Below the pieces are notes generated by a model. It saw nothing but the letters and a program-made list of their open reading frames with translations, was not told where the DNA came from and did not search any database. 64,000 bases of DNA from Bacteroidota bacterium. GTDB taxonomy: Bacteria; Bacteroidota; Rhodothermia; Rhodothermales; UBA10348. The stretch spans positions 1 through 64,000 of the forward strand of contig JAJCYQ010000050.1 in assembly GCA_029262835.1 (NCBI GenBank), in the 5' to 3' direction. The position numbers were made by a program, and so were the translations under genes. Below, piece after piece: positions 1 through 49,700 of this stretch; within the stretch, counting starts at the first letter, position 1, and the number at the start of each line of letters is the position of its first letter.

Positions 1-3000
1 GAGCCCGTCCTCGAGGAACGCAGCAAGCGTCTGCTGATCGCTCAGTCCAAGCCGCGTGAAGGGCGCGCCGCGGAACGGATACTGATCGCCCCCTCGCGCC
101 AGGAAGTCGGCAATGGCGATCGTTACGCTCGGGGCGCCAGCTACCACGGCTCCGTTTTCAATGATCACGGTTCCATCGTCGAGCACGGCCGACTGCACGC
201 GCGTGCCCGGCACGACCACTTCGCCGTCCGGGCCAAGCTCAATCGGAACACCCGCCGGGTTGTACGTAAAGCGCAGCCCGGCGACCTGGGCGAAGCGCCC
301 GGTGCCACCACCTCCGCCGACGCGCGAAACGGCGTTCTCGAGCAGCTCTTTGAACTGCGTGGCTGGAACGTTGGGCACAACCGAGAGAAAATTACCGAAG
401 GGCAGGATATCGAACGTCGTGAGCGTGCTGATCGGGCCAGCCGGCAGCACATTGTCATTGCGGATACCGCCGCCGTTCTGGAAGGCCACATCGGGCGCGG
501 GTACGCCGAATGCGGCGGCGCGTTCGCGGCTCTGCCAAAGCAGCGCATCGGCAATCAGGTTACCCAGATTCGTTTCCCGCGAACGCACCTCGGAGCGGAC
601 GCCGCTGAGCGGTACGTCACTCGTTGCTACGATGGCCTGATCCAGCGTCCTGAGCGCCTGCTCGACCGGGCCAGCCACGCTCGTGAGTACAAACGGATCG
701 GGAACGACGGCACCCGCCGTACCATCCAGTACACTCTGCTTCGCGCGCACCCGCTTCGGCCCACTGAACGACTCATTGATCTCCGAGATGCGCCCTTCGC
801 CATCGAATACCACCTGCAGCGCACCGACATACGAGTAATTGCCCGGTGTCGTCACGATGGGCACCCCGCGCCCGTCGGCATCGTCAACAAGAATCGGGTA
901 AGGACGCTCAGGGCGATCGAACGGGATGAGCAGGTCAGAGCTGTTCGCCTGCATTTCGCTGCCGCCACCGGCCACGACGATGTCCACGCCGCGAAGCGAC
1001 GCAATGAGCGCCTCATCTTCCGCTACTCCCTGCAGGTGACTGATCAGGATGATCTTGTTCACACCCTCGCTCTCGAGACGGTCCACCTCGGCCTGCACGA
1101 CAGCGCGCACATCGGCATTGACAACAGCATCACGGGGGCTCGAAATGAACGGCAGGTTGGGCGTAATGGCTCCAATAATGCCAATCCGCTCACCTCCTTT
1201 TTCAACCACGCGGCTGGGAGCAATCCGGCCGGATGCGGCGAGCGCAGCGAGCCGCACCTCTCCCGAAACGTCCAGGTTCGCCGATACGAACGGCGTGTTC
1301 GCGGCCGCCTCCACGATGTCGGCCAGGATGTCGGGCCCAAAATCAAACTCGTGGTTTCCAATGGCGGCTGCGTCGTATCCCACCGCATCGAGCACCAGTG
1401 CATCGTAGAACACGCCGTCCTGGAGACTGGCATTGAACTCAGGTCCGGCCAGGTAATTGTCGCCCGATGACACCGTCACGACGCCTCCCCGGAGGCCACC
1501 CGTGAGGCTCGCCGCGCGCCCGCGCAGTTCACGCACCTTCGCTACGAACGCCGCGGCGCCACCGAATCCCTGCTGCTCGCCACCGAGGCCCAGCAGCTGC
1601 GATTCGCCATCGTTGTTGTGCAGCACCGTCAGCACGAACGGCTCCGGAGCCGCCGTCTTCACGTTGAAGAGCGCCACCGAACCGGTGACCTCGTTCGAGA
1701 CCACGATCATGTCGTACGCCGTCGGAGAGTCGCCCGCTGGCACAAAAACGATGTCTTCCGGGCCGGAATCGCCAACCTGGGACAGCGTGGCCGCACTGGC
1801 GTTGTCCTCATCGAACAGGACGCCGAAATTGCGGCTCGTCTCGTAGGTCACGATTTTGGGGAGATACGGGTTGGTGACGTCATACACCATGACGCCCCCC
1901 ACGCGCTCGAGGCCGATGAACGCATACGTGCGACCGCCTACACGGCCAATTTCTACGGCTTCGGGTTCTGGCCCCTTGTCGTCAGAGCGTGAATCGAAGG
2001 AGTCGTTCTCATCGTTATTGGCGTTGAAATAGTCAGGCAGCGCGGCCGCAACCGTGCGCTCCAGTTCATCGCCGGAATCGAATACCAGTTGCCCCGTCGC
2101 GCCGTCCCAGATCGAGAACGAGCGGGCTCCGTAGGCGAAAATCCGGTCATGATCGCCGTCGCCGTCGTCATCGCCGTTCACCGTGGTCGTATTGAGCCGG
2201 CCCAGGTTCTCGTCCTGCTGCAGCGTGGCCGCATCGGGGAAACGCGCGCTGTCGAGCGTCAGGTCTTTGACGCGGTCTTCCTCGCTGAATCCATCATAGT
2301 CACGGGCGTCACCCTCATTGGCCGTCACAATGAACGTGCGGCCGAGCGCCGAGTACGAGGCGATGGCATCGGGCTGGTACATGCCGAGCACCGGCCAGCT
2401 GTTGAAGTTGATGCCACCATCGCGGTTCGATGCATCCAGTTCGAGCCCAAGCGCCGACCAGTCCTTGAATCCCAGCGCGCGGATGGCCAACACCTCTCCG
2501 GCTGCCAGGTCAATAACAGCCAGGGCGTTGTTTTCCTGCAGGCTGACCCAGGCCGTGCGAGCGTCAGCGCCGATGGTCACGTACTCCGGCTCAAGATCCT
2601 GTGCCACGGTCGCGCCCGGGCCGAATATCCGGACGTCGGCCGGGAGTTCGCTGTGTCGCGGTCCGCCCACGTTGAAAGCGCCGAAGCCAACCGTCGTGAC
2701 CGTTTCGCTCGTCATGTCGACAATGGTCACCGAGCCTTCGGGATCGGTCAGGTAGTCGTCCGAGGGTTCGCCTTCGTTGGCCGAAACCAGGAACCGCCCG
2801 TCGTGCGAGAACGCGACCATGTCGGGCAGTGCACCCGCTGTCCATGATGTCTGGAACGCGCCGTTCATGTCGAAGAGGACGATCTGGCCGGGCTCTGTCG
2901 CGTCGGCGGCTTCGACCGCAGCGGCCACCATGTCTCCATGGATGGCGACGCTGTTCACGCCACCACCAAATGCACCGAGCGGCACTTCGCGCACGAGCGC

Positions 3001-3267
3001 GGGTGCTGAGGGCGTACTTATGTCAACAAACGTCAGCGAATTGGCGTCAGCGTTTGTGAAAACGACCTGCTGGGAGGCGGCATGGTAGGCCACAATCTCG
3101 GCGGCGCCTTCATCAAAGACGCTGGTTTCGAAGCGACCCACGAATTCCAGGGAGATATCCTGGGTAGCGTCCTGGGCAGCGGCCGTATGGCTGGGTGCGG
3201 CCGACGGCAAGGCAATAAATACAAGCGCCGCGCAGGCGGTAAGGGCGGACAGTAAGAAACGGTTCAT
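1..3267 (-). CDS. Choice-of-anchor I / 5'-nucleotidase bifunctional exported protein (partial, C-terminus beyond window)
   Basis: The frame is open from the ATG at 3267 to base 1 (1089 codons, no stop), so only the C-terminal end is missing. The N-terminus is a signal peptide (MNRFLLSALTACAALVF, then small residues up to AAAQ). Residues about 30-520 look like the 'choice-of-anchor I' beta-propeller, with repeats such as SVAIHGDMVAAAVE and a DGDHDRIFAYGARSFSIWD stretch. From about residue 545 a calcineurin-like 5'-nucleotidase domain follows: LTVLHNNDGE, SSGDN and GNHEFDFG (about residue 636). The 5'-nucleotidase C-terminal domain then shows ETNLGNLIADA and FQNGGGIRND. The fusion is known in environmental bacteria; it is expected to hydrolyse extracellular nucleotides or phosphoesters in the periplasm or at the surface. 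No anchor is visible because the end is cut off. Confidence 0.88.
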   Translation of the reverse strand, partial: MNRFLLSALTACAALVFIALPSAAPSHTAAAQDATQDISLEFVGRFETSVFDEGAAEIVAYHAASQQVVFTNADANSLTFVDISTPSAPALVREVPLGAFGGGVNSVAIHGDMVAAAVEAADATEPGQIVLFDMNGAFQTSWTAGALPDMVAFSHDGRFLVSANEGEPSDDYLTDPEGSVTIVDMTSETVTTVGFGAFNVGGPRHSELPADVRIFGPGATVAQDLEPEYVTIGADARTAWVSLQENNALAVIDLAAGEVLAIRALGFKDWSALGLELDASNRDGGINFNSWPVLGMYQPDAIASYSALGRTFIVTANEGDARDYDGFSEEDRVKDLTLDSARFPDAATLQQDENLGRLNTTTVNGDDDGDGDHDRIFAYGARSFSIWDGATGQLVFDSGDELERTVAAALPDYFNANNDENDSFDSRSDDKGPEPEAVEIGRVGGRTYAFIGLERVGGVMVYDVTNPYLPKIVTYETSRNFGVLFDEDNASAATLSQVGDSGPEDIVFVPAGDSPTAYDMIVVSNEVTGSVALFNVKTAAPEPFVLTVLHNNDGESQLLGLGGEQQGFGGAAAFVAKVRELRGRAASLTGGLRGGVVTVSSGDNYLAGPEFNASLQDGVFYDALVLDAVGYDAAAIGNHEFDFGPDILADIVEAAANTPFVSANLDVSGEVRLAALAASGRIAPSRVVEKGGERIGIIGAITPNLPFISSPRDAVVNADVRAVVQAEVDRLESEGVNKIILISHLQGVAEDEALIASLRGVDIVVAGGGSEMQANSSDLLIPFDRPERPYPILVDDADGRGVPIVTTPGNYSYVGALQVVFDGEGRISEINESFSGPKRVRAKQSVLDGTAGAVVPDPFVLTSVAGPVEQALRTLDQAIVATSDVPLSGVRSEVRSRETNLGNLIADALLWQSRERAAAFGVPAPDVAFQNGGGIRNDNVLPAGPISTLTTFDILPFGNFLSVVPNVPATQFKELLENAVSRVGGGGGTGRFAQVAGLRFTYNPAGVPIELGPDGEVVVPGTRVQSAVLDDGTVIIENGAVVAGAPSVTIAIADFLARGGDQYPFRGAPFTRLGLSDQQTLAAFLEDGL

Positions 3268-3337
3268 GGCAAGTCATTTTGGTGAGCCACGAAACTATGC
3301 CAACCTACCCTCCGTCCGGGTTATGCCACCGATAACT

Positions 3338-3364: not shown

Positions 3365-4357
3365 CTACTCCATCCGCAGCGCGTGCACCGGGCGCCGGCG
3401 CCCGGCGCGGAAGGCCTGATATCCTACGGCCACGAGACACAGCACTCCCAGCCCAAGACCTCCGCCGACCACGTAGGGTACAAACACGGGAGCGGCGTAT
3501 GCAAACGAGGCCTGCCAGCGGCCTATGGCTACAAGCACGATGGGAACAGCGACCGCGTATCCGGCCAGAACAAGCGCCATGGTGCGCGCTACAAGCAGGC
3601 GCATGATTCGACTGCTCGATGCTCCGAGCACCTTGCGGATTCCGATTTCCCGTGTGCGCTGCACCGCTTCGTAGGCAGCCAGGCCAAAAAGGCCAAGTAG
3701 CGCAATGACTACCGCCAGGATCGAGAACACGCCGGTCACCTGCCCGAGCCGCACTTCCTGCTCGTACTGCCGAGCGAACCCTTCACCGAGCATCCAGGAG
3801 CGTGTCGTGTACGTTGGGTGAAACGCTTCGACCACGGAGTGGACGTGCTCCTGCACGGAGGCAGATTGTCCACGGGCAAAACGAACCGCCACGAGGCCGC
3901 CCACAGGCGTCAGCCCGTACATGATGGACCCTATTTCCTCCTGCAGGCCGTGGTGATTGTAGTCCCGAACCACGCCAATCACGACGCCGTCCGGCTTGCC
4001 CGAGCCCGGGGACGTGAACTGTTTGCCGATGGCATCTGCCGCCGATGCCCAGCCGACCTCGCGGACGGCCGCTTCGTTGATGATGACCGCTCGCTCGGCA
4101 TCGGTCGTACGCTCCGGATCAAAATCCCGCCCGGCTACGAGTTCAAGGCCCATCGTACGCAGGTAGAACGCATCCACTCCAATGTATTCCAGCGATACCG
4201 ATTCATCCTCTCCCCATCCCTCGGGAAACGAAAGCTGCCCGCGCCAGCCGTTCATGCCGGGTACGGCGACGGCCGCTGAGACCGACTCGACGGCCGGGTG
4301 TGTCAACAGCATATCGCGCAGCGTTTCCACGGACTGTCCCCGTTCGACTGCAGGCAC
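3365..4357 (-). CDS. ADOP-type ABC permease, C-terminal portion after an in-frame amber codon
   Basis: This is the continuation, in the same frame and without a gap, of the 4358-6028 reading frame. A TAG at 4358-4360 separates them and the next codon is GTG (VPAVERGQS). It holds the second periplasmic core domain and the second FtsX domain. The latter has GVFSILAVVIALLGLFGLAAY, the typical cytoplasmic loop REIGIRKVLGAS and three more transmembrane segments, ending RPVHALRME. ADOP permeases are about 800-900 residues with two such halves; both parts together give 885 sense codons. The fragment could be an independent GTG-started subunit, a readthrough product, or the tail of a pseudogene. No ribosome binding site is seen before the GTG. 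Confidence 0.7.
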   Translation of the reverse strand: MPAVERGQSVETLRDMLLTHPAVESVSAAVAVPGMNGWRGQLSFPEGWGEDESVSLEYIGVDAFYLRTMGLELVAGRDFDPERTTDAERAVIINEAAVREVGWASAADAIGKQFTSPGSGKPDGVVIGVVRDYNHHGLQEEIGSIMYGLTPVGGLVAVRFARGQSASVQEHVHSVVEAFHPTYTTRSWMLGEGFARQYEQEVRLGQVTGVFSILAVVIALLGLFGLAAYEAVQRTREIGIRKVLGASSSRIMRLLVARTMALVLAGYAVAVPIVLVAIGRWQASFAYAAPVFVPYVVGGGLGLGVLCLVAVGYQAFRAGRRRPVHALRME

Positions 4358-6028
4358 CTAGCGCGTATCGACCACCATGACCTCGTCCGCATCAAAGCCT
4401 GGCGAAGCCGACAGCATGAAGTTGATCTGGCTGTGGACGAGGAGCGTACCGAGCACCATAACCGAGGAAATCGTGAACTGAAGCACAACCAGGCCTCGGC
4501 GCACGGCGCCGCCGGCACGCGGCAGGCCGCGCCGACCCTTGAGCACGTGGACCGGGGCAAACCGCGAGAGCACCACCGATGGATACAGTCCGCTCATCAT
4601 TCCAGCCACCACCGCGCCGACAGCCAGCGCAGCCAGCCACCCGGGCGCGAGCAGGTCCGTCCACGGAAGCGTTTTGCCTGACAGGGTATTCAGGAGCGGG
4701 AGCGCCACGGCGGCTACAATGAGCGCCAGGATGGTAGCAAGCAGCGTCATGAGGATCGCTTCGAACATGAATTGTGCCACGAGCAGACCGCGCGACGAGC
4801 CGGCCACTTTTCGTATGCCGACCTCACGCGCCCGCTCCGTAGACCGCGCCGTTGCCAGATTTACAAAATTTACGAGCGCCAGGAGCAGCAGAAACGCGGC
4901 CACAAGGGCCAGCATGCGGACCAGCGCCCGCGAGCCACTCGGTCCGAGTGCGTTGCCAGCCGCCGCATCCAGATATATGTCCGTCATGGGCGTGAGGGTC
5001 AATGCATACTCCGCCCCCCAACTCCGCAGAAAGTCACCAGCATGCTCCATCGGAAGGCCGGCAATCTGCTCCTCGAGCTGCGCCGCAGAGGCGTGCTCGG
5101 CAAGCCGCACGTAATTCGTTACGTTCAGGTTCAGCCAGCCCGACGTCATCTGGCCATCAAACCACTCCGGGTTCTGGGCGCGAAGGGTCTCGAAGGAGAT
5201 GAGCATATCGAACGAGATATGGGAGCGACGTGGGCGCGGCATGATACCCGTGATGGCCATGTCGAGCGAATCGTTCATGACCAGGCGTCGGCCCAGCACA
5301 TCGGTCGTGCCAAACAGCTCCGCGGCCAGCTCCTGCGTGACGACCACGGACCCCGGAGCACGGAGCGCCGTTTCGCGATCCCCCTCCACAAGCGGAAAGT
5401 CGAACATGCGCAGAAATTCGGCGTCGGCGTAGAGCTGGTCAGGAAAGGTATATACGCCCTCGTGCCGTATCGAGAGCTGCGGATACGTCCTGAGGTAGGT
5501 GACCGCCTCGACTTCCGGGTGGCTGTCCTTCACGAGTTGGCCGTACGGCCAGCCGGTCGTAGCACCGCCCATCCGAAAAATCCGCTCCCCTTCCGTGTGC
5601 TGCGCGTCGAACTGGAGTTCATCGTGCACGTAGAGCGAAATCAGCAGAACGGCGGCCAGGCTGACCGCGAATCCGATGATATTGATGGCCGTGAAGCCGG
5701 GGTGACGCCTCATGCTGCCAACAGCGCTGCGAAGGAATGTAGCGAGCATGTCCCGCATGGCCAGCAGTTTCCGGCCCAGCATGTCACGCCGCCCCGTGCG
5801 CCCCCACTTTGTTTTACCATACTCCCGCTCGATCTCATCGTAGCCGCCAAGCCGCCTGGAGGCGAGGCGGAAGGCTTCGTCCGGCCCATAGCCATCCGCC
5901 TGCAGCTGATCCATGTGATCGAGCAGGTGCACTTCCAGTTCCTCAAGGCGATCCTCGGTAAGCGCTGAATTACGCCGCATGAACTGTCTCCACGTGGCAA
6001 GGGCCACGTCCCGCTTGAACGCGTTCAT
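4358..6028 (-). CDS. ADOP-type ABC permease, N-terminal portion (gene interrupted by TAG)
   Basis: The start overlaps the padR stop by 4 bp (ATGA), so the two form an operon. Residues 1-90 are the cytosolic ADOP N-terminal domain (helical, with FRLASRRLGGYDEIEREYG). A first transmembrane segment (FTAINIIGFAVSLAAVLLISLYV) precedes a MacB-like periplasmic domain, which is followed by an FtsX domain (LVRMLALVAAFLLLLALVNF and AREVGIRKVAGSSR). The second half begins with a further membrane segment and is cut at VMVVDTR by TAG. Homologous proteins continue straight into the sequence encoded by 3365-4357. PadR-ADOP pairs are typically drug or peptide efflux or stress-response systems whose ATPase is often encoded elsewhere; no ATPase gene lies next to it here. 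Confidence 0.8.
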   Translation of the reverse strand: MNAFKRDVALATWRQFMRRNSALTEDRLEELEVHLLDHMDQLQADGYGPDEAFRLASRRLGGYDEIEREYGKTKWGRTGRRDMLGRKLLAMRDMLATFLRSAVGSMRRHPGFTAINIIGFAVSLAAVLLISLYVHDELQFDAQHTEGERIFRMGGATTGWPYGQLVKDSHPEVEAVTYLRTYPQLSIRHEGVYTFPDQLYADAEFLRMFDFPLVEGDRETALRAPGSVVVTQELAAELFGTTDVLGRRLVMNDSLDMAITGIMPRPRRSHISFDMLISFETLRAQNPEWFDGQMTSGWLNLNVTNYVRLAEHASAAQLEEQIAGLPMEHAGDFLRSWGAEYALTLTPMTDIYLDAAAGNALGPSGSRALVRMLALVAAFLLLLALVNFVNLATARSTERAREVGIRKVAGSSRGLLVAQFMFEAILMTLLATILALIVAAVALPLLNTLSGKTLPWTDLLAPGWLAALAVGAVVAGMMSGLYPSVVLSRFAPVHVLKGRRGLPRAGGAVRRGLVVLQFTISSVMVLGTLLVHSQINFMLSASPGFDADEVMVVDTR

Positions 6029-6369
6029 GATGCCAACCTCGGCTCAAGTCCCCACAGCATGGCGAGCACCGAATCCACCTGCAGCCACTGCCTGCGCTCG
6101 CTCGCCAGCGCCCGCGTCCCCTTCGCGGTCAGCGCGTAGTACTTGCGACGCCGCCCGGACGCAGGCACCTGCCATGTGGACGCTATCAGCCCCTCGTCTT
6201 CCAGGCGGTGAAGCACCGGATAAAGCGTTCCGTCTTTCCACTGGATGCGACCACCTGAGAGGTCATGAACCTGCTGCAGGATGGCATATCCGTACGATGG
6301 ACCGCGCGAGAGGATGCTCAGGAGCAGGGGGCGCGCGCTCGCCCCGATGAGTTCTTTCGAGATGGACAT
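6025..6369 (-). CDS. PadR family transcriptional regulator
   Basis: 114 residues, the usual size for a short PadR protein. The winged-helix signature is clear: LLLSILSRGPSYGYAILQ, then GTLYPVLHRLEDEGLI (wing contact region), then GRRRKYYALTAKG. It should dimerise and repress its own operon with the downstream ADOP permease, whose start overlaps this stop by 4 bp. The gene starts 3 bp from a 50-bp palindrome (6373-6422) that almost certainly is its operator. No Shine-Dalgarno is visible before the ATG at 6369, so the message may be short-leadered. Confidence 0.92.
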   Translation of the reverse strand: MSISKELIGASARPLLLSILSRGPSYGYAILQQVHDLSGGRIQWKDGTLYPVLHRLEDEGLIASTWQVPASGRRRKYYALTAKGTRALASERRQWLQVDSVLAMLWGLEPRLAS

Positions 6370-6372
6370 GAG

Positions 6373-6422
6373 AATGGATAGAAGTTCAAGGTATAGGGCT
6401 ATACCTCGAACTTCTATCCATT
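6373..6422. promoter_or_regulatory. 50-bp near-perfect palindromic operator of the padR operon
   Basis: Outer arms AATGGATAGAAGTTC (6373-6387) and GAACTTCTATCCATT (6408-6422) are exact reverse complements. The inner arms AGGTATAG and CTATACCT are also exact, leaving one mismatched pair and a central GG. The dyad ends 3 bp before the padR start codon, so it must cover the promoter and transcription start (TATA-like boxes sit in the inner arms). PadR regulators bind such dyads as dimers; the binding itself is inferred. Confidence 0.8.
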
Positions 6423-6503
6423 GTTACAGTGCACCTCAGAAAAATCCCGGAGATCAGGCGCGTCACCTCAGGGCGCGTCATGCGCCTGGGCCATGCAATG
6501 GGG

Positions 6504-6576
6504 CGCCCTCGGGAAGATTCGAACTTCCGACACCCGGTTTAGGAAACCGGTGCTCTATCCCCTGAGCTACGAGGGC
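6504..6576 (-). tRNA. tRNA-Arg (anticodon CCU)
   Basis: Read on the minus strand, the 73 nt fold as a cloverleaf. The acceptor stem is GCCCTCG/CGAGGGC and the D arm is GCTCAGGGGATAGAGC. The anticodon stem-loop is CCGGT-TTCCTAA-ACCGG with anticodon CCT. The T arm is GGAAGTTCGAATCTTCC and the discriminator is G. CCA is not encoded. The anticodon reads AGG (Arg). Confidence 0.95.
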
Positions 6577-6651
6577 CATGCTCGCCGAACGAGATGACAC
6601 AAAATACGGCCCCGCGTGTACATGTGGCACACGCCCCCGAACATCGAGTCC

Positions 6652-7824
6652 ATGAACATAGAACAACTTCGCGCCGACACGCCCGGCTGCGCCCACATCG
6701 TGCACCTGAATAACGCCGGGGCGGGGCTCATGCCCCGCCCCGTCCTCCGAGCCGTAACGGAGCATCTGGAGCGTGAGGCGCTTTTCGGGGGCTACGAGGC
6801 CGCGGCCCGCGCCGAAAAGGACGTGCAAGCTACCTACCAGGCGCTGGCAGACCTCGTCGGCGCGGCGCCGGACGAAGTCGCGCTCGTTGAGAATGCGACC
6901 AAGGCGTGGGGCACCGTGTTCTACGGCATGCCCTTCAACGAGGGCGACAAGGTCATCACAACGCATGCATCCTACGCATCGAACTACTTGGCCATGTTGC
7001 AACTCCGCCAGCAGCTCGGTATCGAGATTGTGGTCGCGCCCTCCGATGCGGCCGGGCAGGTCGACACGGACGCCCTCGAGCGCTGCATCGACCAGAAAAC
7101 CCGCCTGATTTGCCTCACGCACATTCCAACGAACTCCGGTCTCGTGAATCCGGCCGCCGATGTGGGGCGTGTGGCGCGCCGGTACGGCATTCCCTATCTG
7201 CTCGATGCCTGCCAGTCGGCCGGGCAGGTGGATCTGGATATGGATGCCATTGGCTGCGATTTCCTCTCCGGCACGGGGCGCAAGTATCTGCGTGGACCCC
7301 GCGGGACCGGATTTCTCGTCGTGCGGCGCGAGCGGATGGACCTGATCACGCCCCCAACGATTGATCTGCGCGCCGCGACCTGGACGGCCACCGACTCGTT
7401 CGAGCTGCAGGGCTCGGCGCGGCGATTCGAGTCCTGGGAGGGGTATGTGGCCGGAAAAATAGGGCTCGGCGTGGCCGCAAGGTATGCGCTTGACCTCGGC
7501 ATGAAGCGCGTCGAAGAGCGGATTGCACAGCTCGGCGAGGGGCTTCGCGAGCGGCTCGGCGCGCTCCCTGGCATTACAGTGCACGACATCGGGCGTCAGA
7601 AAGGCGGCATTGTGACGTTCTCGCACCGCTCAGTCAGCGCCGACGCCATACAGCAGGCGCTTGCCGCGGAGCGCATCAACGTGCACACGTCCGGCCCCGA
7701 ATGGTCGCGGCTCGATGCCGAAGCCCGGAATTTACCGCTCATGGTGCGCGCATCCGTCCATGTCTACAACACGGAAGAAGAGCTGGACCGGTGCGCAGAC
7801 GCCGTTCGCCGGCTGGCGAGTTGA
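6652..7824 (+). CDS. Class V aminotransferase-fold PLP-dependent enzyme (cysteine desulfurase/selenocysteine lyase-like)
   Basis: 390 residues starting at MNIEQLRADTPGC; an upstream ATG at 6616 would add 12 residues unlike the family. It opens with VHLNNAGAGLMP, typical of class V enzymes of the CsdA/isopenicillin-N-epimerase-like branch. PLP contacts are visible as NATKAWG and LTHIPTNSGLVNP. DACQSAGQVDLDM carries the aspartate that contacts the pyridine nitrogen. Lys211 in SGTGRKYLRGPRGTGFLVV should form the internal aldimine. The substrate is not evident: it could be a desulfurase-like or an epimerase-like enzyme. It stands alone, 51 bp before a transporter gene. Confidence 0.85.
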   Translation: MNIEQLRADTPGCAHIVHLNNAGAGLMPRPVLRAVTEHLEREALFGGYEAAARAEKDVQATYQALADLVGAAPDEVALVENATKAWGTVFYGMPFNEGDKVITTHASYASNYLAMLQLRQQLGIEIVVAPSDAAGQVDTDALERCIDQKTRLICLTHIPTNSGLVNPAADVGRVARRYGIPYLLDACQSAGQVDLDMDAIGCDFLSGTGRKYLRGPRGTGFLVVRRERMDLITPPTIDLRAATWTATDSFELQGSARRFESWEGYVAGKIGLGVAARYALDLGMKRVEERIAQLGEGLRERLGALPGITVHDIGRQKGGIVTFSHRSVSADAIQQALAAERINVHTSGPEWSRLDAEARNLPLMVRASVHVYNTEEELDRCADAVRRLAS

Positions 7825-11158: not shown

Positions 11159-11196
11159 GGCGCTGTCGGGCGGCGTCGTTGGGCGGGCCCAGAATT

Positions 11197-11636
11197 TGCC
11201 AGCCGGATCATCGCGCCGGAGCGCCTCGCGCGGCCATTGGCCGTTCGCGGCGGCTCCGGTGAGGAAAGTCCGAACACCATAGGGCACCGTGCTTCCTAAC
11301 AGGAAGGCACTGCTTCGCGGCAGTGACGGCACGTGCAACAGAAAGCAAACCAGCCGATGGTTTCAGGGGCCTCCGGGTCCTCGAAGCTCAGGCAATGGGT
11401 GAAATGGTGGGGTAAGAGCCCACCGGCGCTGCGGGTAACCGGAGCGGCCAGGCAAACCCCATGGGGTGCAAGGTCAAGCAGCATCGCTCCTGCAAAGGAT
11501 ATGGCGGCCCGTCGAAGTGCGATGCGGGTAGACTGCTCGAGGCTGGTGGCGACACCAGTCCCAGATAAATGATGATCTCCCTGCCGCGCACCGCGGCCGC
11601 CGGCAGGCAGACAGAATTCGGCTTACAGGCTGGCAA
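11197..11636 (+). ncRNA. rnpB: RNase P RNA (bacterial type A)
   Basis: The universally conserved 5' core GAGGAAAGTCCGAACACC lies at about 11259-11276. The conserved 3' core ACAGAATTCGGCTTACAG is at 11611-11628. The ends pair as helix P1: GCCAGCC (11198-11204) with GGCTGGC (11628-11634). The length of about 440 nt is normal, if on the long side. It is followed at once by an intrinsic terminator. RNase P RNA is the catalytic subunit that removes tRNA 5' leaders. Exact ends are inferred from P1. Confidence 0.95.
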
Positions 11637-11642
11637 TGCCGC

Positions 11643-39240: not shown

Positions 39241-42200
39241 TTACTTGACCAGCATCATGCGGTCTGTTTCGACAATGGTCTTGTTGTCCATCTTGGCAAT
39301 GACCCGGTAGAAGTACGATCCCGATGCAAGTCTCGTGCCGTCCACCTGTACGGAACGTTTGGCACCAGCCTGCATGGTCTGGGTCGGGATCGACATCACA
39401 CGGCGACCGATCAGGTCGTAGACCTCAATTTCAACTTCAGCTGCCTGTGGCAGATCGAAGCTGATGGTCGTTGCAGCGTTGAACGGATTCGGATAGTTGC
39501 CATTGAGCGCAAACGTTTCCGGAAGCTCAACAACCTCCAACTCATCGACATTAGCCACCGGATTGTCGTTGACCGCGCCTTCTGCACGCAGATTGAACGA
39601 ATCGGCGGTACCAACCAGTTCGAGTGTCAGAATGGCAACCGTACCATCAGATGTCATGCTGCCGTAACCGGCCGCTGCAAGTGCCACACTGCCATCTTCT
39701 TCGTTCGTTGCACTCCGTACAATCCAACCGTCTCCAAGAGTCGATTCAATGCCTATGACCTTCGCGTAGGCCGGATCGATTGTAGTGGAAAATGAAAGCG
39801 CTCTGGTATCACCCGTGTTTCCTGTAATCTGTACAGGAATGGAGACCAGATTTCCTTCATGATTGAGATCGCCGTAAGCAATGGCTGCAGCCGGGAACTC
39901 TACGAGTTCAGACTTGCCGTTGACGAACGCATCGAAGATGAGTGCGGCGTCAAATGCATTGACCGTACCGGACGTGTTGAAGTCAGCGGCAATCGTCTGC
40001 TTGGCCGTAAGCGTCTGCAGACCGACAAAGGCGTCGAGTGTCAAGGAGGCTCCAACTTCAGTTGGCCCACCCGATCCGTCAACGTTACCCGCCACCGGAT
40101 TTACGTCTGCCGTGAACGTCGACGTGCCCGTCGCGCCCAGATCGTCCGTAGCCGTTACGGTGATGGTTACAGGAGCCGTATCGGCCGTAACGACACCGCC
40201 CGTGACGACATATGGCTGAACACCGGTCACCGTGACCGCAGCATCCGTATTGGTCGCTGTAGCAACGGACGGATCTGCACTCTCCACACTGAACGCGTAG
40301 TCCGTGGCAACTGTGCCGCCGGTGAACTCGGCCGATGCATCAACAGCCGCATCAGCTCCTTCCTCTACCGTCACATCTGCCAGACCACCTGCAGCAACGA
40401 GGGCTGCATTCACATTTACGTCGAACGTGGTTACCACGGTGTCGCCCTCGGCATCTGTAGCCGTGAGCGTAATGGTGGCCGTTCCCGTACCAACGAATGT
40501 CAGCGTGATTTCACCAGCAGCATCAACAGCCGCCGTTGCAACGGCGGCGTCTGACGTAGCCACGGCATAACCAATGGGAGCAGTACCACCAGTGGATGCA
40601 ACTGAACCATCAACGGTCTGATCGGCTGTGCCGTCATTTACGGTAACATCGGCGAGTGCCTCACCAGCGACGAATGCTTCGTTGACTGTGACAGCTACGG
40701 TAGCTGTAGCCACGGCACCAAAGATATCCGTAGCCTGCACTGTTACCGTCGATGTCCCTACTGCTACACCCGTGACAGTAAGATCGTCACCGGCCGTGGC
40801 ACCTGTGGCAACGGCTGCATCGCCATCCGTAACTGCGTAGGCATAAGTTGGTGCCGCATTGTTTGGCGAGCCACCGTCAAACACGGTCGTGAGATCAATG
40901 ACCTCGTTGTTGCCAGCGTTCAGCGTAATGGCTGCTGGGTCCGTACTGGCCAGGTTGTTCTCCAGACCAATAGCGAACAGAACGCCGTCGGCGTTGATGG
41001 CTCCAACTGCATTCCTTGCTACAAGGACAGGCTCAGTGCCTGAGACAGCAAAGTTGTCGTTGTTGGCCGGGCCGTTCGCCACCTTGATCCAGAAGTTGTT
41101 CGGGTTTCCGTCCTGACGACGAATGGCCCGTGTCTTCTCGATGTCTTCGTCAACAAAGTTGGCGAACCCGGCTGAACGATATTCCACGTCGTAATTGATT
41201 GACGGAGTGACCGTCGGCGTTGACGTTACCGACCAGTGGAAGTCTGTCGCATAGCGTCCGATCTCAAATGGATTATTGAGTTCGTCCACAGCTGCGATTG
41301 GCAGGCCATTGATGCCTCCAGCATTGTTCGCGTTGTAGGAGGCAACCAGGACAGGGTCAGCAGCCAACGTGTTCGGTGTATTGAACGTAATCGCGAACGG
41401 GCGGTAGTTCATGTCGGCATCACCTAACGGGAATTCGACGCGATCGGTGGTGTTCGGTGAAGCCGTTCCATCGACTACCGCCTGCACGTTGCCAAAAATG
41501 CTTCCGCTCGTACGAGTGAAGCCCTGGTTCGTCGTGTTCTGATGGCACAGAATGACGTTGTTGGTTCCCGTCGCAAGCGCACCATTGGTCAGCGTCAGGT
41601 TGTTTCCAATGTTACCGTTGTTTCCTGCGGCTGCTGCGTTACATACAGCACCGGCTGCATTATTGCTCGTATTAAGATTGCCACCTACAAGCGTAACGCC
41701 CGCTGCATTGTTGATGGTCACATTACCGTTGTAGAAGAGGCCTCCCGTAATCGTCTGGGCAGCACTCCCCGCGAACGCAACCGATCCACCAGCTGCTGGA
41801 GCCAGGCCACCGTTCTGTACAGCAAGTGGGTTGCCGTTCAGGTTGAGCGCGCCAAGTACTGTGAATGTGTTGCCCGACGGATCAAACACATCACCAGCAG
41901 CAACCGTCATATCCGTAGCAGACCGATTGGCATGCAATGCAACCGCCCCCGCTCCAGCGGGAGTTACTGTCACATTTGGCGTGGCGCCGGGTGCCCAGGA
42001 CTGGTTGCTCGTGGCCGTTGCGGCCGCATAGAACGTCAAGTTGTAGTTAGTGGCATCACCGAAGGTGAGCACTTCAACTACCTGGCCACCAGCGGCGTCA
42101 AAGAACGGCGTGTTTACACCTACGAGGAAGTTTCCAGCTGCTGGCAGCGTGATCGAGTTGTCGCCATCATCATTGGCGTCAATCGATATCTGACCAGCTG

Positions 42201-45200
42201 CGACATCCACAGTCGTTGCTGTAACAGCCCTTGCGTCTGCAAGCGTAACCGCCGTTTTCGTAATCAGCGAGCCAACCGTGTCGAACAACTCCAGGCCTGT
42301 CGGAAATGGATCAGCCGTATCGTAGATAACTGTTGCCGAGTTGGCTTCAGCTCCGAGCACCAGATTACCGGGAACGACACCTGCGGTGCGCGTCACCGTA
42401 TTGCCCGCTCCCGATGCATTGATCGTGAGACCACCGTTTCCATCACCCAGATTCAGCGTGCCTACGGGTGCGGCACCAGCAGACGAGATCGTCAGCGGTG
42501 CATTGAGCCACAGGAAGTCATCTACCTGCAGTACATCGCCAACAGCCACGTTGACAGCCGCCCGCACTTCAAGGTTCGGAACGGCAAGGGCATTTGCACC
42601 AATCGTCAGTGCTCCTCCGTTCATGACCAGGAAGTCTCCAGCAGGAGTCGCCGTATTGGATGCGGTTGCGGCTGTCGCCGCATAGGAACCAGCCGTAAAC
42701 GTTACACCAGCGTTTGTGATGACATCAACGCCTGTGAGGGTAACGGCACCCGCCGTATGCGTATAGAGCCCCGTCACGGTCAGCTGATCCGGATTGTTAC
42801 CCGCTGCAGCATCTCCCTGAAAATCAACGTTGGACGCATTGAGCGTGAGCGTACCTGTAATCGTCTGCGGCCCTTCGGCCTGGACCGTAGTCCCAATAAT
42901 GGTGACATTGTTGGTGATACCAGCTCCGACATTGACTGTACCTGACAGGGTCAGAGCCTGGCCACCTATCAACGCGGCGTTGATGTCTGTCAGCCCCGTC
43001 ACGGCTGTCGGTCCCGTCAGCGCAGAGCCAACGTCAACGCGCAGTCCTGGAAGGACAGCTGCGCTTGCTGCAAGGTCGATATTCGTGTCGACGTTAGTAG
43101 CCGCATCAAGTTCAAGCGAGCCACTTGATCCAAGAACTGCATTTGACACCGCGTTGAATGCAGCACCCGTCGTATGCACTGTCTGACCGTTGAAGTCAAA
43201 TGTCGGTGCAGCGCCAATTGGTGCTGTACCAACTGTGGCCCCGGCATCGATGACAGCGTCAGTCGACCACGTGAGAGCGCCACCATTGGCCACGGTCACG
43301 AGACCGTCGACACTACCCTCATCGTTGTTACCTGTCAGTGCGTTTGCATCGTCCGCTACCAATCCAAGCGTAAGGGAACCGTCCGTGTCAACGAATACAG
43401 TACCGTCGATCTGCTGGATATTTGCGAACGTGGCGGCTTCACTACCCGTGCCTGCCGCATTGTCGCCAACAATGATATTCGTCAGCAGTGCGGCGGTCGC
43501 CGGAGCAGCAGGAATGGTTGCCGTACCGTTGACCGTTACGCCTGCCGCCTGCACACTCAGGTCGGCAGTGGAAACGCCCGTAAACGAGTGCGTCTGATTG
43601 TCTCCAAGCAGCACAATCTGATCTCCTACGGCTCCGGCAAACGTACCTGCGTGCGTTACCACACCCGTTGCATTTACGTCTGCCGTGTTCGTAGCAAGAT
43701 CAAGTGTTGTGCCGGCAGCTGTGTTGACATTACCAACCGTGGCTGCAGGATTGGCCGGAAGCGTATACGCCGTACCAGTATCAACAAGGTTGAGTGACGA
43801 GATACCCGTGAGGGCATACTCCGAGCCTGCAGCGACGGCTGCACCGCCAAATATTTCAAGTACGTACGTTCCGGTAGGAGCAGTCGTATTAAATGGACCC
43901 GCAATAAGAGTAGTGGCATCTGCAGAGTTCCGACGAACCCGTGCCGTCGTACCCGTAGGCTTGATCTCAGAGCCACCTGCTATAGCAATACCGCCCGTGA
44001 AAAGCGTCAGATCGCCTGTGAACAGCAGCGTAGTAGCAGCGCCTGCACCAGGCACGGCCAGGGTATTACCACCACCCACGTTAATCAAGACGTTGGAGAT
44101 TTGACCGAGACCACTCAGCGACTGCCCCGTATTCTCAAACGAAATGGCACCGTCCTGTCCGGTCGGTGTCGAAATCGTACCATTGACCGTAGCAACGGCA
44201 CCCGCAGTACTGTGGCGCACCAGGAAGTTGCCAAGGTTGATTGCTGTATTGGCATTCGTTGTAAATGCCGCCTGGATAGCGAATGACTGCCCGAGAACAA
44301 GCGTCGCCGTTCCCGTCGTCGCGGCTGCGCGGCTCAGTGTAAACGTGTCAACCAGTGTATTCGGACCCGGCGTATAGGTCGCAGATGTACTACCGTTGAT
44401 TACGAATGCCAACGTTGCGCCACCTCCGTTTGCGACGAATACCCCGCCGTTGGATGTATCAAAATTACCGTTGACGGTAAGCGTAGCTCCAGCACTGATG
44501 GTCAGCGATCCAGCTCCCGTTACCGTACCCGATCCGAAGATGGCGTTACCTGCACCATTTACAACAACTGCACCGGAAATTGTAACAAGACCATCGACAT
44601 CATTGGTACCCGCTCCGCCGTTGAATGCAGTGGCGCCAGTGAAGCTGGCCGTACCTGCCACGTCAAAGCTACCATTCGCTGTGACATTACCAGCACCCTG
44701 TGTCAAGTTGCCGCCTACAACAACAGGGTCGTTGATCGTTCCACCACCCGTGTTGCTGAGGTTGCCACCAACTCGAAGCACGTCTGCGTCGGCGTTACCA
44801 ATGTTGCCGGTGCCCGTGTTCGTTACGTTACCAGCAACAGAGACAGCACCCGTAATGCCGCCATTTCCGCTGACTGTCAGATTACCAGCAACGTCAAAGG
44901 CGGGCGCCGCCGCGCCGGCCGAGGCCGGAACGAATGACGCACCAGAAACCACAACTGTTGACGCAGCACCCGTAATCGTCCCCATATTAACATGAGGACC
45001 GGCACCCGTAAGCGTGAACGTGGTTGCTCCGAGGCCGAGCGTTCCACCTCCGTTATTCAAAACTCCGGCTATGGACGAGCTCACACCAATGGACATGGTG
45101 CCCGTATTGGTGAGCGATATGACCGCCGTGTCGTTATCGTTCGCGTCACCCTGCCCGTCATTGGTAATGGCTCCATTGACCGTCAGCGTCCCTGCATTGT

Positions 45201-46203
45201 TAATGAGGTAGCTGAACGGTTGGAGTGCTGGCGCAGCACCTGAACCATCATTGTTGAAACCAGTGACCGTTACCGATCCGAATGTAACTGTACCGCCTGG
45301 GTTGGCGATTTCGCCTGATATGCCAGCGACATTATTTGCAGAAATCGATGCCTGGAAGATACCAGACACTGTGACGTTGCCACCACCCAGGTTTGCGAAA
45401 CGACCGTTGGTTACAGACACGCTGCTGTAATTAACCGTTCCGGCAGAGTTGTTGAGGACGTTGCCTGAAGCCGTGACCGCGTTGGAAAACGTCACGGTGT
45501 TCGCTGCGGCTGTACCAGCAATATTGACTGTGCCCGCAACCAACGCGCTATTAAACGTCAGACTTGCTGCCTGATTGACAGTTAGTGTGCCGCCATTGAG
45601 GTTAATCGGGATTTCCGTACCCGCAGACGCTACCGTCCCATTGTAGTTTGCAGTAACTGCGCCGGTATACGAGGGCGATGCTCCCGTTGCCGTACCACTG
45701 GCTACGTTTAACGTGGTTGCCACGGTAAATGCCAGTTTGCCCGCCCCGAGATTGATGACCCCATTGGTGAGTGTAAACGTGCCGCCGCCGACTGCTACGG
45801 ATCCAACCCCACTATTAAGCGCGATAGTTGCTGCGGCGCCAGGGGCGATCGTCGACGTACCGGTAAAGGTTGCGACTGTAACAGCACCAGCCTGTCGGAC
45901 TTCGACCGTCAGGCTACCCGTGCCTATGAAGTCGAAATTCTCCGGGTAGTTACCAGCTTCAATGCTGATGATGTCACCCGCCGTAGCAATTGACAGCGCT
46001 CCGTTGACACCGAGCAGCGTCTGCTTCGGACCGCTGGCACCGGAAATATTGGCCGTCGTACCGTCGAATGCGTCACTACCAGTTGTAGAAGACACGAAAA
46101 TTGTCGACTGGGCGAGCGTGGTCTGGACTCCGGTGAAGAAGACCAGGGCTGCAATCGCGATCAGTGAACGTGACATGAATTGTAGCAGTCTTGAGTTACC
46201 CAT
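39241..46203 (-). CDS. Giant T9SS-exported beta-strand-repeat protein with Ig-like, dockerin-like and cohesin-like modules
   Basis: 2320 residues from the ATG at 46203, preferred because GAGAGG lies about 9 bp upstream; an ATG at 46227 adds 8. Signal peptide RSLIAIAALVFFTGVQTTLAQ. The first domain looks like a pectate-lyase-type repeat start (IFVSSTTGSDAFDGTTANIS, GDIISIEAGNYPE). About 1650 residues of Gly/Ala/Asn/Thr/Val-rich beta-strand repeats follow, then three Ig-like repeats (about 1800-2035). A dockerin-like segment comes next (about 2040-2098; GNVDGSGG and ADFNTSGTVNAFDAALIFD), then a cohesin-like module (LVSIPVQITGNTGDTRALSF). A T9SS type A sorting domain closes it (YPNPFNAATTISFDLPQAAE, YDLIGRR, TDRMMLVK). 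Likely a long surface adhesin or scaffold. Confidence 0.85.
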   Translation of the reverse strand: MGNSRLLQFMSRSLIAIAALVFFTGVQTTLAQSTIFVSSTTGSDAFDGTTANISGASGPKQTLLGVNGALSIATAGDIISIEAGNYPENFDFIGTGSLTVEVRQAGAVTVATFTGTSTIAPGAAATIALNSGVGSVAVGGGTFTLTNGVINLGAGKLAFTVATTLNVASGTATGASPSYTGAVTANYNGTVASAGTEIPINLNGGTLTVNQAASLTFNSALVAGTVNIAGTAAANTVTFSNAVTASGNVLNNSAGTVNYSSVSVTNGRFANLGGGNVTVSGIFQASISANNVAGISGEIANPGGTVTFGSVTVTGFNNDGSGAAPALQPFSYLINNAGTLTVNGAITNDGQGDANDNDTAVISLTNTGTMSIGVSSSIAGVLNNGGGTLGLGATTFTLTGAGPHVNMGTITGAASTVVVSGASFVPASAGAAAPAFDVAGNLTVSGNGGITGAVSVAGNVTNTGTGNIGNADADVLRVGGNLSNTGGGTINDPVVVGGNLTQGAGNVTANGSFDVAGTASFTGATAFNGGAGTNDVDGLVTISGAVVVNGAGNAIFGSGTVTGAGSLTISAGATLTVNGNFDTSNGGVFVANGGGATLAFVINGSTSATYTPGPNTLVDTFTLSRAAATTGTATLVLGQSFAIQAAFTTNANTAINLGNFLVRHSTAGAVATVNGTISTPTGQDGAISFENTGQSLSGLGQISNVLINVGGGNTLAVPGAGAATTLLFTGDLTLFTGGIAIAGGSEIKPTGTTARVRRNSADATTLIAGPFNTTAPTGTYVLEIFGGAAVAAGSEYALTGISSLNLVDTGTAYTLPANPAATVGNVNTAAGTTLDLATNTADVNATGVVTHAGTFAGAVGDQIVLLGDNQTHSFTGVSTADLSVQAAGVTVNGTATIPAAPATAALLTNIIVGDNAAGTGSEAATFANIQQIDGTVFVDTDGSLTLGLVADDANALTGNNDEGSVDGLVTVANGGALTWSTDAVIDAGATVGTAPIGAAPTFDFNGQTVHTTGAAFNAVSNAVLGSSGSLELDAATNVDTNIDLAASAAVLPGLRVDVGSALTGPTAVTGLTDINAALIGGQALTLSGTVNVGAGITNNVTIIGTTVQAEGPQTITGTLTLNASNVDFQGDAAAGNNPDQLTVTGLYTHTAGAVTLTGVDVITNAGVTFTAGSYAATAATASNTATPAGDFLVMNGGALTIGANALAVPNLEVRAAVNVAVGDVLQVDDFLWLNAPLTISSAGAAPVGTLNLGDGNGGLTINASGAGNTVTRTAGVVPGNLVLGAEANSATVIYDTADPFPTGLELFDTVGSLITKTAVTLADARAVTATTVDVAAGQISIDANDDGDNSITLPAAGNFLVGVNTPFFDAAGGQVVEVLTFGDATNYNLTFYAAATATSNQSWAPGATPNVTVTPAGAGAVALHANRSATDMTVAAGDVFDPSGNTFTVLGALNLNGNPLAVQNGGLAPAAGGSVAFAGSAAQTITGGLFYNGNVTINNAAGVTLVGGNLNTSNNAAGAVCNAAAAGNNGNIGNNLTLTNGALATGTNNVILCHQNTTNQGFTRTSGSIFGNVQAVVDGTASPNTTDRVEFPLGDADMNYRPFAITFNTPNTLAADPVLVASYNANNAGGINGLPIAAVDELNNPFEIGRYATDFHWSVTSTPTVTPSINYDVEYRSAGFANFVDEDIEKTRAIRRQDGNPNNFWIKVANGPANNDNFAVSGTEPVLVARNAVGAINADGVLFAIGLENNLASTDPAAITLNAGNNEVIDLTTVFDGGSPNNAAPTYAYAVTDGDAAVATGATAGDDLTVTGVAVGTSTVTVQATDIFGAVATATVAVTVNEAFVAGEALADVTVNDGTADQTVDGSVASTGGTAPIGYAVATSDAAVATAAVDAAGEITLTFVGTGTATITLTATDAEGDTVVTTFDVNVNAALVAAGGLADVTVEEGADAAVDASAEFTGGTVATDYAFSVESADPSVATATNTDAAVTVTGVQPYVVTGGVVTADTAPVTITVTATDDLGATGTSTFTADVNPVAGNVDGSGGPTEVGASLTLDAFVGLQTLTAKQTIAADFNTSGTVNAFDAALIFDAFVNGKSELVEFPAAAIAYGDLNHEGNLVSIPVQITGNTGDTRALSFSTTIDPAYAKVIGIESTLGDGWIVRSATNEEDGSVALAAAGYGSMTSDGTVAILTLELVGTADSFNLRAEGAVNDNPVANVDELEVVELPETFALNGNYPNPFNAATTISFDLPQAAEVEIEVYDLIGRRVMSIPTQTMQAGAKRSVQVDGTRLASGSYFYRVIAKMDNKTIVETDRMMLVK

Positions 46204-46771
46204 AGACTGTGCCTCTCTTGTTTTCATCCTTGTGGACTTGATGAGTTGGTGTCGAAACGAATCACCCGGCAGGCGCCAGGTACAGTGGATTGGCCATCAT
46301 TGCCAGACGCAAAAAACCCGGTCACGCAGATTAGCTCTGCACGCCGAGATACGCGGTGGGTGGATAACCAAGATTCCAATATCAAAGCTTATGCTTTTGT
46401 AATAGTTGTATTTATGCGGAAAACAGGTCTCAGCTATACTGTAGTGCCTCATCCGCGATACGGCCATTCATACACGCCACTCTACAGTAGTACCCAATCC
46501 CGAACTGATAAAACGGCAGGTCGAGGTGGGGGTTCTGACTGCGATAGCGTTAAGAATTTCCATCAACGCCAAGATCCCCCGAAAGAACGCCATTGTCAAG
46601 TGCCGCAGCGTTAAAATACCTACCGGATCGGTCCGCCCGGGTCTCGCTCGACGCTCATCACGCTCATCATGAATAGTGAGCACTGCCGCACGTCACGCAG
46701 GCTATTTCACCCCGTTTTCAGTACCTTGTCCCCCGGTTCACAAGGATGAATGCGCTCTTTCACCCGCGCCT
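46204..46771. other. Divergent intergenic region between the two giant cargo genes
   Basis: 568 bp containing the upstream regions of both giant genes. It is more AT-rich around 46380-46440 (AAGCTTATGCTTTTGTAATAG), the likely promoter zone. The plus-strand frame is open from 46676, but its first 32 codons carry no signal sequence, so the coding start is put at 46772. I see no RNA gene and no clear dyad. Confidence 0.5.
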
Positions 46772-49700
46772 ATGACTCACAGCGTCCGATTCCTGCGGTT
46801 CTTCGCTACGGTACTCGTTCTGGTCCCGTGCTTCAGCTCGCTTGTTGCCCGTGGTCAGACAACGAGTTGCCAGATATTCGCCAACGCAAGCGATGGTGCG
46901 GACAGTCAGCCTGGAACATTGACACAACCCGTCCAGTCGCTCGAACGTGCTGCCGCCATCGCAGGCCCGGCTGCGCGCATCTGCGTTGCTGCTGGGGAAT
47001 ATTTCAGGGGCGCCGATGCCGATGGTACGACGCTGGATGTGGGATCGGGTACCCTTACGCTTGAACTGCAGGCCTTTGCGGGTGAAACCGACATTCTTCT
47101 GAGCATGCCCTCACTTGCAGTCGTCGGTCAGGGCGGCACCCTTGTGATTGCAGCCGGAAGCACAGACCGCATTTTCTTCTCCTCAGGCATTCTGAACACA
47201 GATTCACCAGATGGCATGGAGCAGTTGACTATGGAGGGGGCTGAAATCGTGGTAGATGACGTCAACGTCACCATGGGTCCCCGGCTCAAAAACGTCACAA
47301 TGCGGCAGGGTGCCTTGCGGGGTATAGCAGTGTGGGAGGCATCCCAATATCTTGTAACTTTGGAAGGGCCCGTCTCGCTCGACGCCAGCAGTCTGCCTCC
47401 GCTCAGCGGTGGCAGACTGCTGGTTTCCGGCCCTGCTCCCGTTGACATTGCGGGCGACATCAACCTTGATGACGCCCGCATGGATATCGGCTCCTCTGGC
47501 ACGCTTTCTCTCGCGGGCGTTGTCTCCATAACAACGGAAACATCAATCGTCGCGAACGGTGACGGCGCCGAACTTCGCCTCGACGACACACTGCTTCTCC
47601 AGGGGCCCGGAGGCACTGTCAACCTCCCCGTGCCAAATCTTGTCATATACAATGTAGACACTGCACAAACGCCCACCTCGGCCTGGACGCTGTCTCTCAC
47701 TACAAACCGGGGCGAACTGCGGGGTGCGGCCGCGGACAGCGATGGCCAAAGCACGCCACCCCCGTTGAACAGTTCATGGCCGCGGTTAAACCTCTCAGGA
47801 GACTGGACTGTCGGATCCTCATCGTCAAACAGCACACTTTCGACACCCGAACTGAATATTGAGTCCGGAAACGTCCTGTCCTACGAATCGATCGAGATTA
47901 TAGGCAGCGCGTTCGGTATTGCGACAGGAAGAACGCTTACCATGGACGACGCGGCAGTCATTCTCAACCAGGAGGATGTATTGGTGTCGATTGAGGGAGC
48001 CTTGCTGGGATCGGGAAGTCCGGAAGTTCTACGTCTGCAGAAGAATGGTGTGGTATCGCTCGCTGTCGGTGCCGAAATATCCGGAGCGGAAATCAGCGCC
48101 CCAACGGCACGAATTGAGAGTGACGGCGGCACAATCCATGACCTTGTCCGCGTCACGGCCGGTTCCGCGCTTGAGATCAGTGGGGTCATCGCAGGCAGCG
48201 CCAGGCTCGAGGCAGATCAGAGTACGATCACGCTTCGCGAAGATGCTCAGTGGTCGGTCTCGTCCCTCGAGGCAACTGCAACGGTGGTACACCTCCAGTC
48301 CAATTCCGGGTTGTCGGTATCAGGCAATATCGAGACGGATGCATTGTCGGGCTTTCCGACTCGCCTGGGAACTGTCGTTTTGAGCCCAACGGTTACCTCC
48401 GTCGATGCCCCGGGTCCTACACCTTTTCCAGCTGTCCTATCCACCGCCAGCAATGTTGTCATTCGCACGGGCGGACCCATGGAGTCGTTGGTCGTCACTG
48501 AGGGACGTATGGAACTGCAATCGTCCGGATCGGCTGACATTCTTGGGCCTGTCAGCATCTCAGGTGCTACACTTTTTTTTCATGCTCCCACCGAGTCCCT
48601 CGACTGGTCGTTTCGTGGAGGAATGGACGCAACAGGCGCTACTGTCCTCTTTGACGGGAGCATGCCGTATGGGGTCCGACTGCAAGGTATGCTCCGTCTC
48701 CAGAATTCGTTCATTCAGTGGCCGCAACAGGGTCTCTCGGTATTGCCAAACACGATCCTCCGACTGACCGGTCCGGACTCCATTGTACTCCCCGCAATGT
48801 CAATGGATGCTCCCCGGGGAGTCCTACAGATCGATACGCCGACGACCATACTAAGTGGGCTTGACCTGACGGATGGTCGGCTGATTATTGCAGGGAATAC
48901 CCGCCTCACTGTGCAGGGGGGCGTGCGCCGGACGAACGGCCGCTTCGAACCAGTAGAAGGAGGCATCCTGCGATTAGAGGCGCCGACCGGTTCGCCGGCA
49001 TCTGTCCGGGGTTTCTCGACATCGGTGCTGCCATCGCTCGAAATTGGTGCTGGGCAGACACGACTTGAGGAATCGGTCGTGGTACTTGGTAGCCTCACGG
49101 TCGTCGGTGGCACTCTGGACGTTGGGGCTGCTGTCGGTCTCAGCGTCTCCGACTCCGTTCGCGTCTCGACGGGAGTTTTATCTCTCGGGCTCGGATCCGA
49201 GCTGCTGGTAGCGGGTCCACTCCACATGACCGGTGGAGAGATCGTGGCTGGCGGAAGTTCAATGAATCTGTCCGACAACGTACGTATTGAACTGCAGGGA
49301 CGTCTCTCGGGCACCCTGGATATGCTCACTCTGGGCCAGTCGGGCGGCGCGACGCTTTTTTCAGACATACCACTGCGCGCGCGGAGCGTCCAGATCTTCG
49401 ACGGCAGTACAGTCTCTCTATCTTCCAGACTGAACGTGGAGTCACTGCTTGCCATCGGGTCAGATGCTTCGCTCGTTCTCGCTGACACCGTGCGCCACCT
49501 GGGATTAGGAGACGCGCCGGAGTTCATTAATCACGGCACGACTGGAGGCGACGGTACCATTGAGCTGTCCGGGCCGGACGCTGACAGCCCAGGAACTGTT
49601 CTGGTCGGCAACGGCACGTTCGCCAATATTCGTGTTGACGTACCCCCCGGAGGAGGCGACATCCTCGCCGCTCCATCCACGGAACCGCTTCGCCTTTCCG

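Follow-up and report, generated by a model that had tools for sequence, protein, structure and literature searches.

The minus-strand frame that runs from 6028 to 3365 in the 64,000-nucleotide stretch of DNA analysed here (the window) is open save for one TAG at 4358–4360 in the assembly sequence. Either a nonsense mutation of recent date or a polymorphism among strains is the probable origin of this codon, and the permease gene that it interrupts is itself probably dispensable. In the proposed course of events, a change of one base would recently have created a nonsense codon in this strain and so shortened a permease that is ADOP-like, PadR-linked and not essential. Translation would stop after 556 residues, and the product would consist of repeat 1 with a single additional helix; the second part would be either unmade or lacking its first membrane helix, and the fused pseudo-dimer would be lost. 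We infer a mutation that is real in cells and of recent date, a dispensable gene and a product that does not work. As in a nonsense pseudogene, the stop is in frame and occupies a position at which relatives have a sense codon, and among the four options raised in a preliminary description of this DNA (a fresh pseudogene, a sequencing error, amber readthrough or a gene turned into two subunits) the first is the best supported. The event looks like one of an ordinary kind, involving no new reading of the code or mode of protein assembly.

The in-frame TAG is codon 557 of the permease frame and is preceded by the residues VMVVDTR and directly followed by a GTG codon. The 5′ part of the gene (4361–6028, minus strand; 556 codons) encodes permease prefix domain 1, repeat 1 and the first helix of repeat 2, and the 3′ part (3365–4357, minus strand; 330 codons and a terminal TAG) encodes the remainder of the second periplasmic domain and three helices (FtsX). 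The normal end of the permease, at 3365–3367 on the same strand, is likewise a TAG and is where the frames of two same-genus genomes, designated G002 and G003, also end. The preliminary description had reported frames 4358–6028 and 3365–4357 as joined but for this one TAG, with the same flanks, and this is confirmed; its length of 885 residues is corrected to 887 codons with the TAG position counted (556 + 1 + 330), plus the terminal stop. In annotation, the two open frames are best entered as one interrupted permease gene and not as two proteins. The gene is alone in its condition: of 57 MacB_PCD (PF12704) matches in its own genome (G000) it is the sole one with an internal stop, none of the 45 ABC_tran matches of that genome has one, and neither does any of the 108 MacB_PCD matches of G002 and G003 together.

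Comparison with relatives indicates what the codon is likely to have been. Across a search set of 41 genomes (G000 and 40 relatives), the best non-self matches among those listed are in G002 (59%) and G003 (57%), both of the same genus and stop-free, and these full-length counterparts (L010 and L011) have CAG at the codon aligned to the TAG. Three of the four genomes of the genus match the permease at 1e-180; the fourth, G001, does not, and holds nothing above 35% identity to it among the matches listed. The aligned column is highly varied, containing R, K, Q, P, N, T, D, G, S and A, with a gap in one case, across 24 relatives, G002 and G003 included, and a stop is found there in none of 29 related loci (L010–L038). 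The alignment used for the fold and for conserved columns comprised 24 of these loci, five partial or damaged ones (L020, L024, L026, L031 and L034) being left out, and one distant archaeal locus returned by a search for related loci was also set aside. Judged from the aligned sequences, a wide range of residues is tolerated at this site, and the simplest origin of the stop would be a single-base change in a glutamine codon. The CAG-to-TAG change suggested earlier is thus supported by the CAG of both same-genus genomes with full-length counterparts, and the accompanying suggestion to look for the same codon in relatives yields a TAG in one genome only.

Besides the target, at least five matches among those listed were flagged for stops. 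Four of these stops (two in G004 and one each in G029 and G020) lie at match codons 1–12, ahead of the likely start. Another match, in G022 (L026, C87:7920–10289), has an in-frame TAG at match codon 29, in the first helix, and a wider tblastn alignment counts three stops there; this gene, from a related genus, is probably a damaged paralogue in its own right. As this is the sole other match with an internal stop among those listed, and the stop lies at a different place, recurrence of a stop at the codon-557 site was rejected.

The position of the stop within the protein bears directly on what its two pieces could do. When the frame is read through, a profile search finds two MacB_PCD and two FtsX stretches in tandem, and when the TAG is taken as a stop only repeat 1 is complete, with a layout of one helix, MacB_PCD, three helices and FtsX; the FtsX stretch of this repeat ends at residue 489. 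Hydropathy identifies eight helices (114–138, 368–386, 425–443, 459–486, 513–531, 767–785, 808–835 and 848–866). In an AlphaFold2 model of the read-through protein (mean pLDDT 82.9, pTM 0.72, 25 sequences), a helix at 507–540 is followed by a strand at 550–554 and a helix at 560–574, and residue 557 sits in the loop between the last two. The helix at 507–540, the first membrane helix of repeat 2 (4409–4510, minus strand, derived from the residue numbers), is therefore encoded upstream of the stop, which comes 17–26 residues beyond it, depending on whether the model (507–540) or hydropathy (513–531) is used. Both predictions place the stop inside the second periplasmic domain and not between the repeats. 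The earlier statement that the TAG falls exactly between the two halves accordingly gives way, since repeat 1 completes its FtsX stretch at 489 and codon 557 comes after the opening helix of repeat 2. In a split transporter the break would lie between two complete topological units; here it lies at 557, after helix 507–540.

Read through, the protein matches positions 5–803 of the 803-position ADOP model TIGR03434, with two MacB_PCD and two FtsX stretches, although at 309 bits (E 6.4e-92) it does not reach the curated cut-off of 622.3. Because of this shortfall the permease is best described, from its sequence, as an ADOP-like relative and not as a formal ADOP member, and it differs further from ADOP in that its gene is interrupted by a TAG. 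It also contains permease prefix domain 1 (NF038403), with a match above cut-off, and the regulator encoded upstream scores 91.9 against the PadR model TIGR03433, below its cut-off of 101.8. By fold, the read-through model comes closest to E. coli YbbP of YbbAP (9ge6), with MacB (5gko) as the next protein; the superpositions are loose (TM-scores 0.41 and 0.35 by query length), and MacB-type repeats are a shared feature. The best sequence-profile matches to solved structures are 3is6 and MacB. Fused permeases are described in one review as carrying two interceding helices (PMC5985334), whereas hydropathy and the model here give eight helices with none between the repeats. No ABC_tran match is found in the window, the nearest on the contig being at 65.6–66.2 kb.

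The genomic setting suggests that loss of this gene would be tolerated. The gene for the PadR-family regulator (6025–6369, minus strand) lies directly upstream and shares 4 bases with the start of the permease gene, and the syntenic site is marked by a tRNA-Arg (CCT) gene (6502–6576, minus strand) and a class V aminotransferase gene (6616–7824, plus strand). Genes for tRNA-Arg(CCT), the aminotransferase, MFS and NIF3 cluster in G001, G002 and G003 as well. The PadR–permease pair adjoins this cluster in G000 and G002 and is absent from it in G001 and G003, whose sites (about 4.1 and 4.5 kb) gave chance-level similarity only (best blastn E 0.022; best permease tblastn over 11 residues, E 0.52). 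G001 and G003 are the closer species, at 75.9–93.4% identity to G000 over three neighbour proteins, against 63.9–76.5% for G002. Because the pair is missing from the same site in these two closer genomes of the three compared from the genus, it is probably dispensable as far as gene content can tell; given so patchy a distribution, there would be nothing remarkable in losing it by mutation.

The G003 copy of the permease lies elsewhere, on contig C53, with a PadR gene of its own. Trees of the permease, from which two loci that run off their contigs (L012 and L017) were left out, pair G002 with G003 with a support of 99 for the whole protein, 67 for the first part alone and 100 for the second part alone, unlike the neighbouring genes, which pair G000 with G001 and G003. 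The G003 copy may therefore have moved or be of outside origin, and may not be a strict orthologue. The only counterpart at the same site is the G002 copy. In G001 and G003 the spot beside tRNA-Arg(CCT) (3365–6501 of the window; L152, L153 and L154) holds other frames, one of which is about 435 codons long with a similar start in both genomes; this spot may be a variable site.

Beyond the stop, the gene shows little sign of decay. The 330 codons that follow contain no further lesion, and GC at the three codon positions is coding-like, at 0.73/0.47/0.72 after the stop compared with 0.68/0.44/0.76 before it. Of the columns conserved in at least 95% of sequences, 21 of 24 past the stop and 44 of 47 ahead of it are retained, and the lesion consequently looks young. 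A part that is still coding-like and largely conserved also counts against the preferred reading of a recent nonsense mutation, as it would equally fit a gene in use.

After the stop, G000 has 65 unique amino-acid changes versus 19 and 26 in the other two lineages, and before it 81 versus 58 and 66 (Fisher p 0.0013); a repeat count with a separate alignment gave 65/19/26 after and 81/58/67 before (p 0.0009). The G000 branch is also the longer (0.469 versus 0.346). The best change point for the rate shift is at residue 639 and not at 557, and columns conserved in outgroups exhibit no shift (19:20 versus 17:15, p 0.81). Controls were drawn from 29, 34 and 31 frames of at least 650 codons in G000, G002 and G003, which form 10 reciprocal-best-hit triplets, the target included. 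Among the 27 lineages of the nine control triplets of intact paralogues, several of which, with their uneven identities, may fall short of strict orthology, three show a shift toward the second part that is similar to or larger than that of the target (2-fold or more, p<0.05), one of them in G000. With dS near saturation (1.4–2.5), dN/dS was not used. The excess of changes past the stop in G000 thus hints, at most, at relaxed constraint on the sequence.

The main rival to a recent nonsense mutation, although an unlikely one, is that the TAG is an error of consensus or assembly, or the minority allele of a mixed population captured in the contig, with the gene intact in most cells. The genome is a draft of 103 contigs, 97.63% complete, the frame is clean apart from the TAG, and errors of this kind are known to give rise to apparent pseudogenes; Cooley and Wright attribute many apparent bacterial pseudogenes to assembly errors and report that these vary with coverage (PMC11017572). 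Against this, the absence of any other internal stop from the MacB_PCD and ABC_tran matches of G000 indicates that the assembly is not generally error-ridden, and a single change from the CAG of the relatives is what ordinary mutation produces. Much less probable still is a functional split, in which re-initiation at the GTG beside the stop would provide a second subunit. That GTG does adjoin the stop, and both pieces match FtsX above cut-off, but with the stop inside the second periplasmic domain, the opening helix of repeat 2 stays with the upstream piece, which argues against two working subunits. Started at the GTG, the second piece would possess three helices, and its periplasmic N-terminus would have neither a signal nor a helix for export. 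Moreover, inspection by eye finds no clear Shine-Dalgarno-like sequence at the normal distance, and this column is free of stops in all 29 related loci, so that this option of the preliminary description is very unlikely.

Readthrough of a leaky TAG, tolerated or regulatory, would yield a little full-length permease beside the truncated form. Such a reading draws on the clean downstream frame with its retained conserved residues and on precedent, given that many in-frame bacterial stops are presented by Belinky et al. (2021) as not yet marking pseudogenes (PMC7918605). A worked example in that study is likewise a TAG at a CAG position, but the stops described there are common to two or more species and the present one occurs in one genome only. 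It is shared with neither G002 nor G003, and TAG also terminates the permease gene itself. No CUA anticodon is present among the 42 tRNAs found in G000 (Rfam tRNA model, anticodons by ARAGORN), a set that is incomplete, since Ile-GAT and Ala-TGC are absent and tRNAs are therefore missing from the assembly; the search for suppressor tRNAs proposed earlier thus returned none. The RF1 frame is open over 371 codons and that of RF2 is open too; "1 TGA" flagged in the RF1 match proved to be no interruption. PylS reaches at best 31.5 bits in G000 against a cut-off of 178.15, and among control genomes 13 of 14 give some match and one exceeds the cut-off. By a rough heuristic pick, TAG ends six of 31 long non-overlapping frames of the window, the internal TAG counted among them. 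The 100 nucleotides past the stop fold in an ordinary way (z 0.58; matched or bettered by 144 of 200 shuffles), and a promoter and terminator scan gave nothing clear (1 versus 0.7 and 4 versus 2.3 expected). Overall, tRNAs, release factors, PylS and stop usage contain nothing in favour of recoding, and with no stop at this column in the 29 related loci the amber readthrough put forward earlier appears quite improbable.

A maintained leaky TAG, for which the 556-residue product would work alone, perhaps as a homodimer, with occasional readthrough giving the fused form, is very improbable; this product does comprise a complete MacB-like unit plus one helix. Should the TAG prove fixed in many strains with the downstream part under constraint, it would be one more tolerated bacterial nonsense codon.

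Several other features of the window can be described. An open frame of 1091 codons on the minus strand (1–3273) reaches the start of the contig and has a signal-peptide-like start; it has no match within the four neighbourhood loci compared. Two adjacent frames of opposite orientation, 39241–46227 (minus strand, 2328 codons) and 46676–53761 (plus strand, 2361 codons), probably encode very large secreted or surface proteins, the former with a Por_Secre_tail sorting domain above cut-off (36.4 versus 27 bits) and the latter with a match to it below cut-off (22.5 bits). An RNase P RNA of bacterial class A lies at 11195–11641 on the plus strand.
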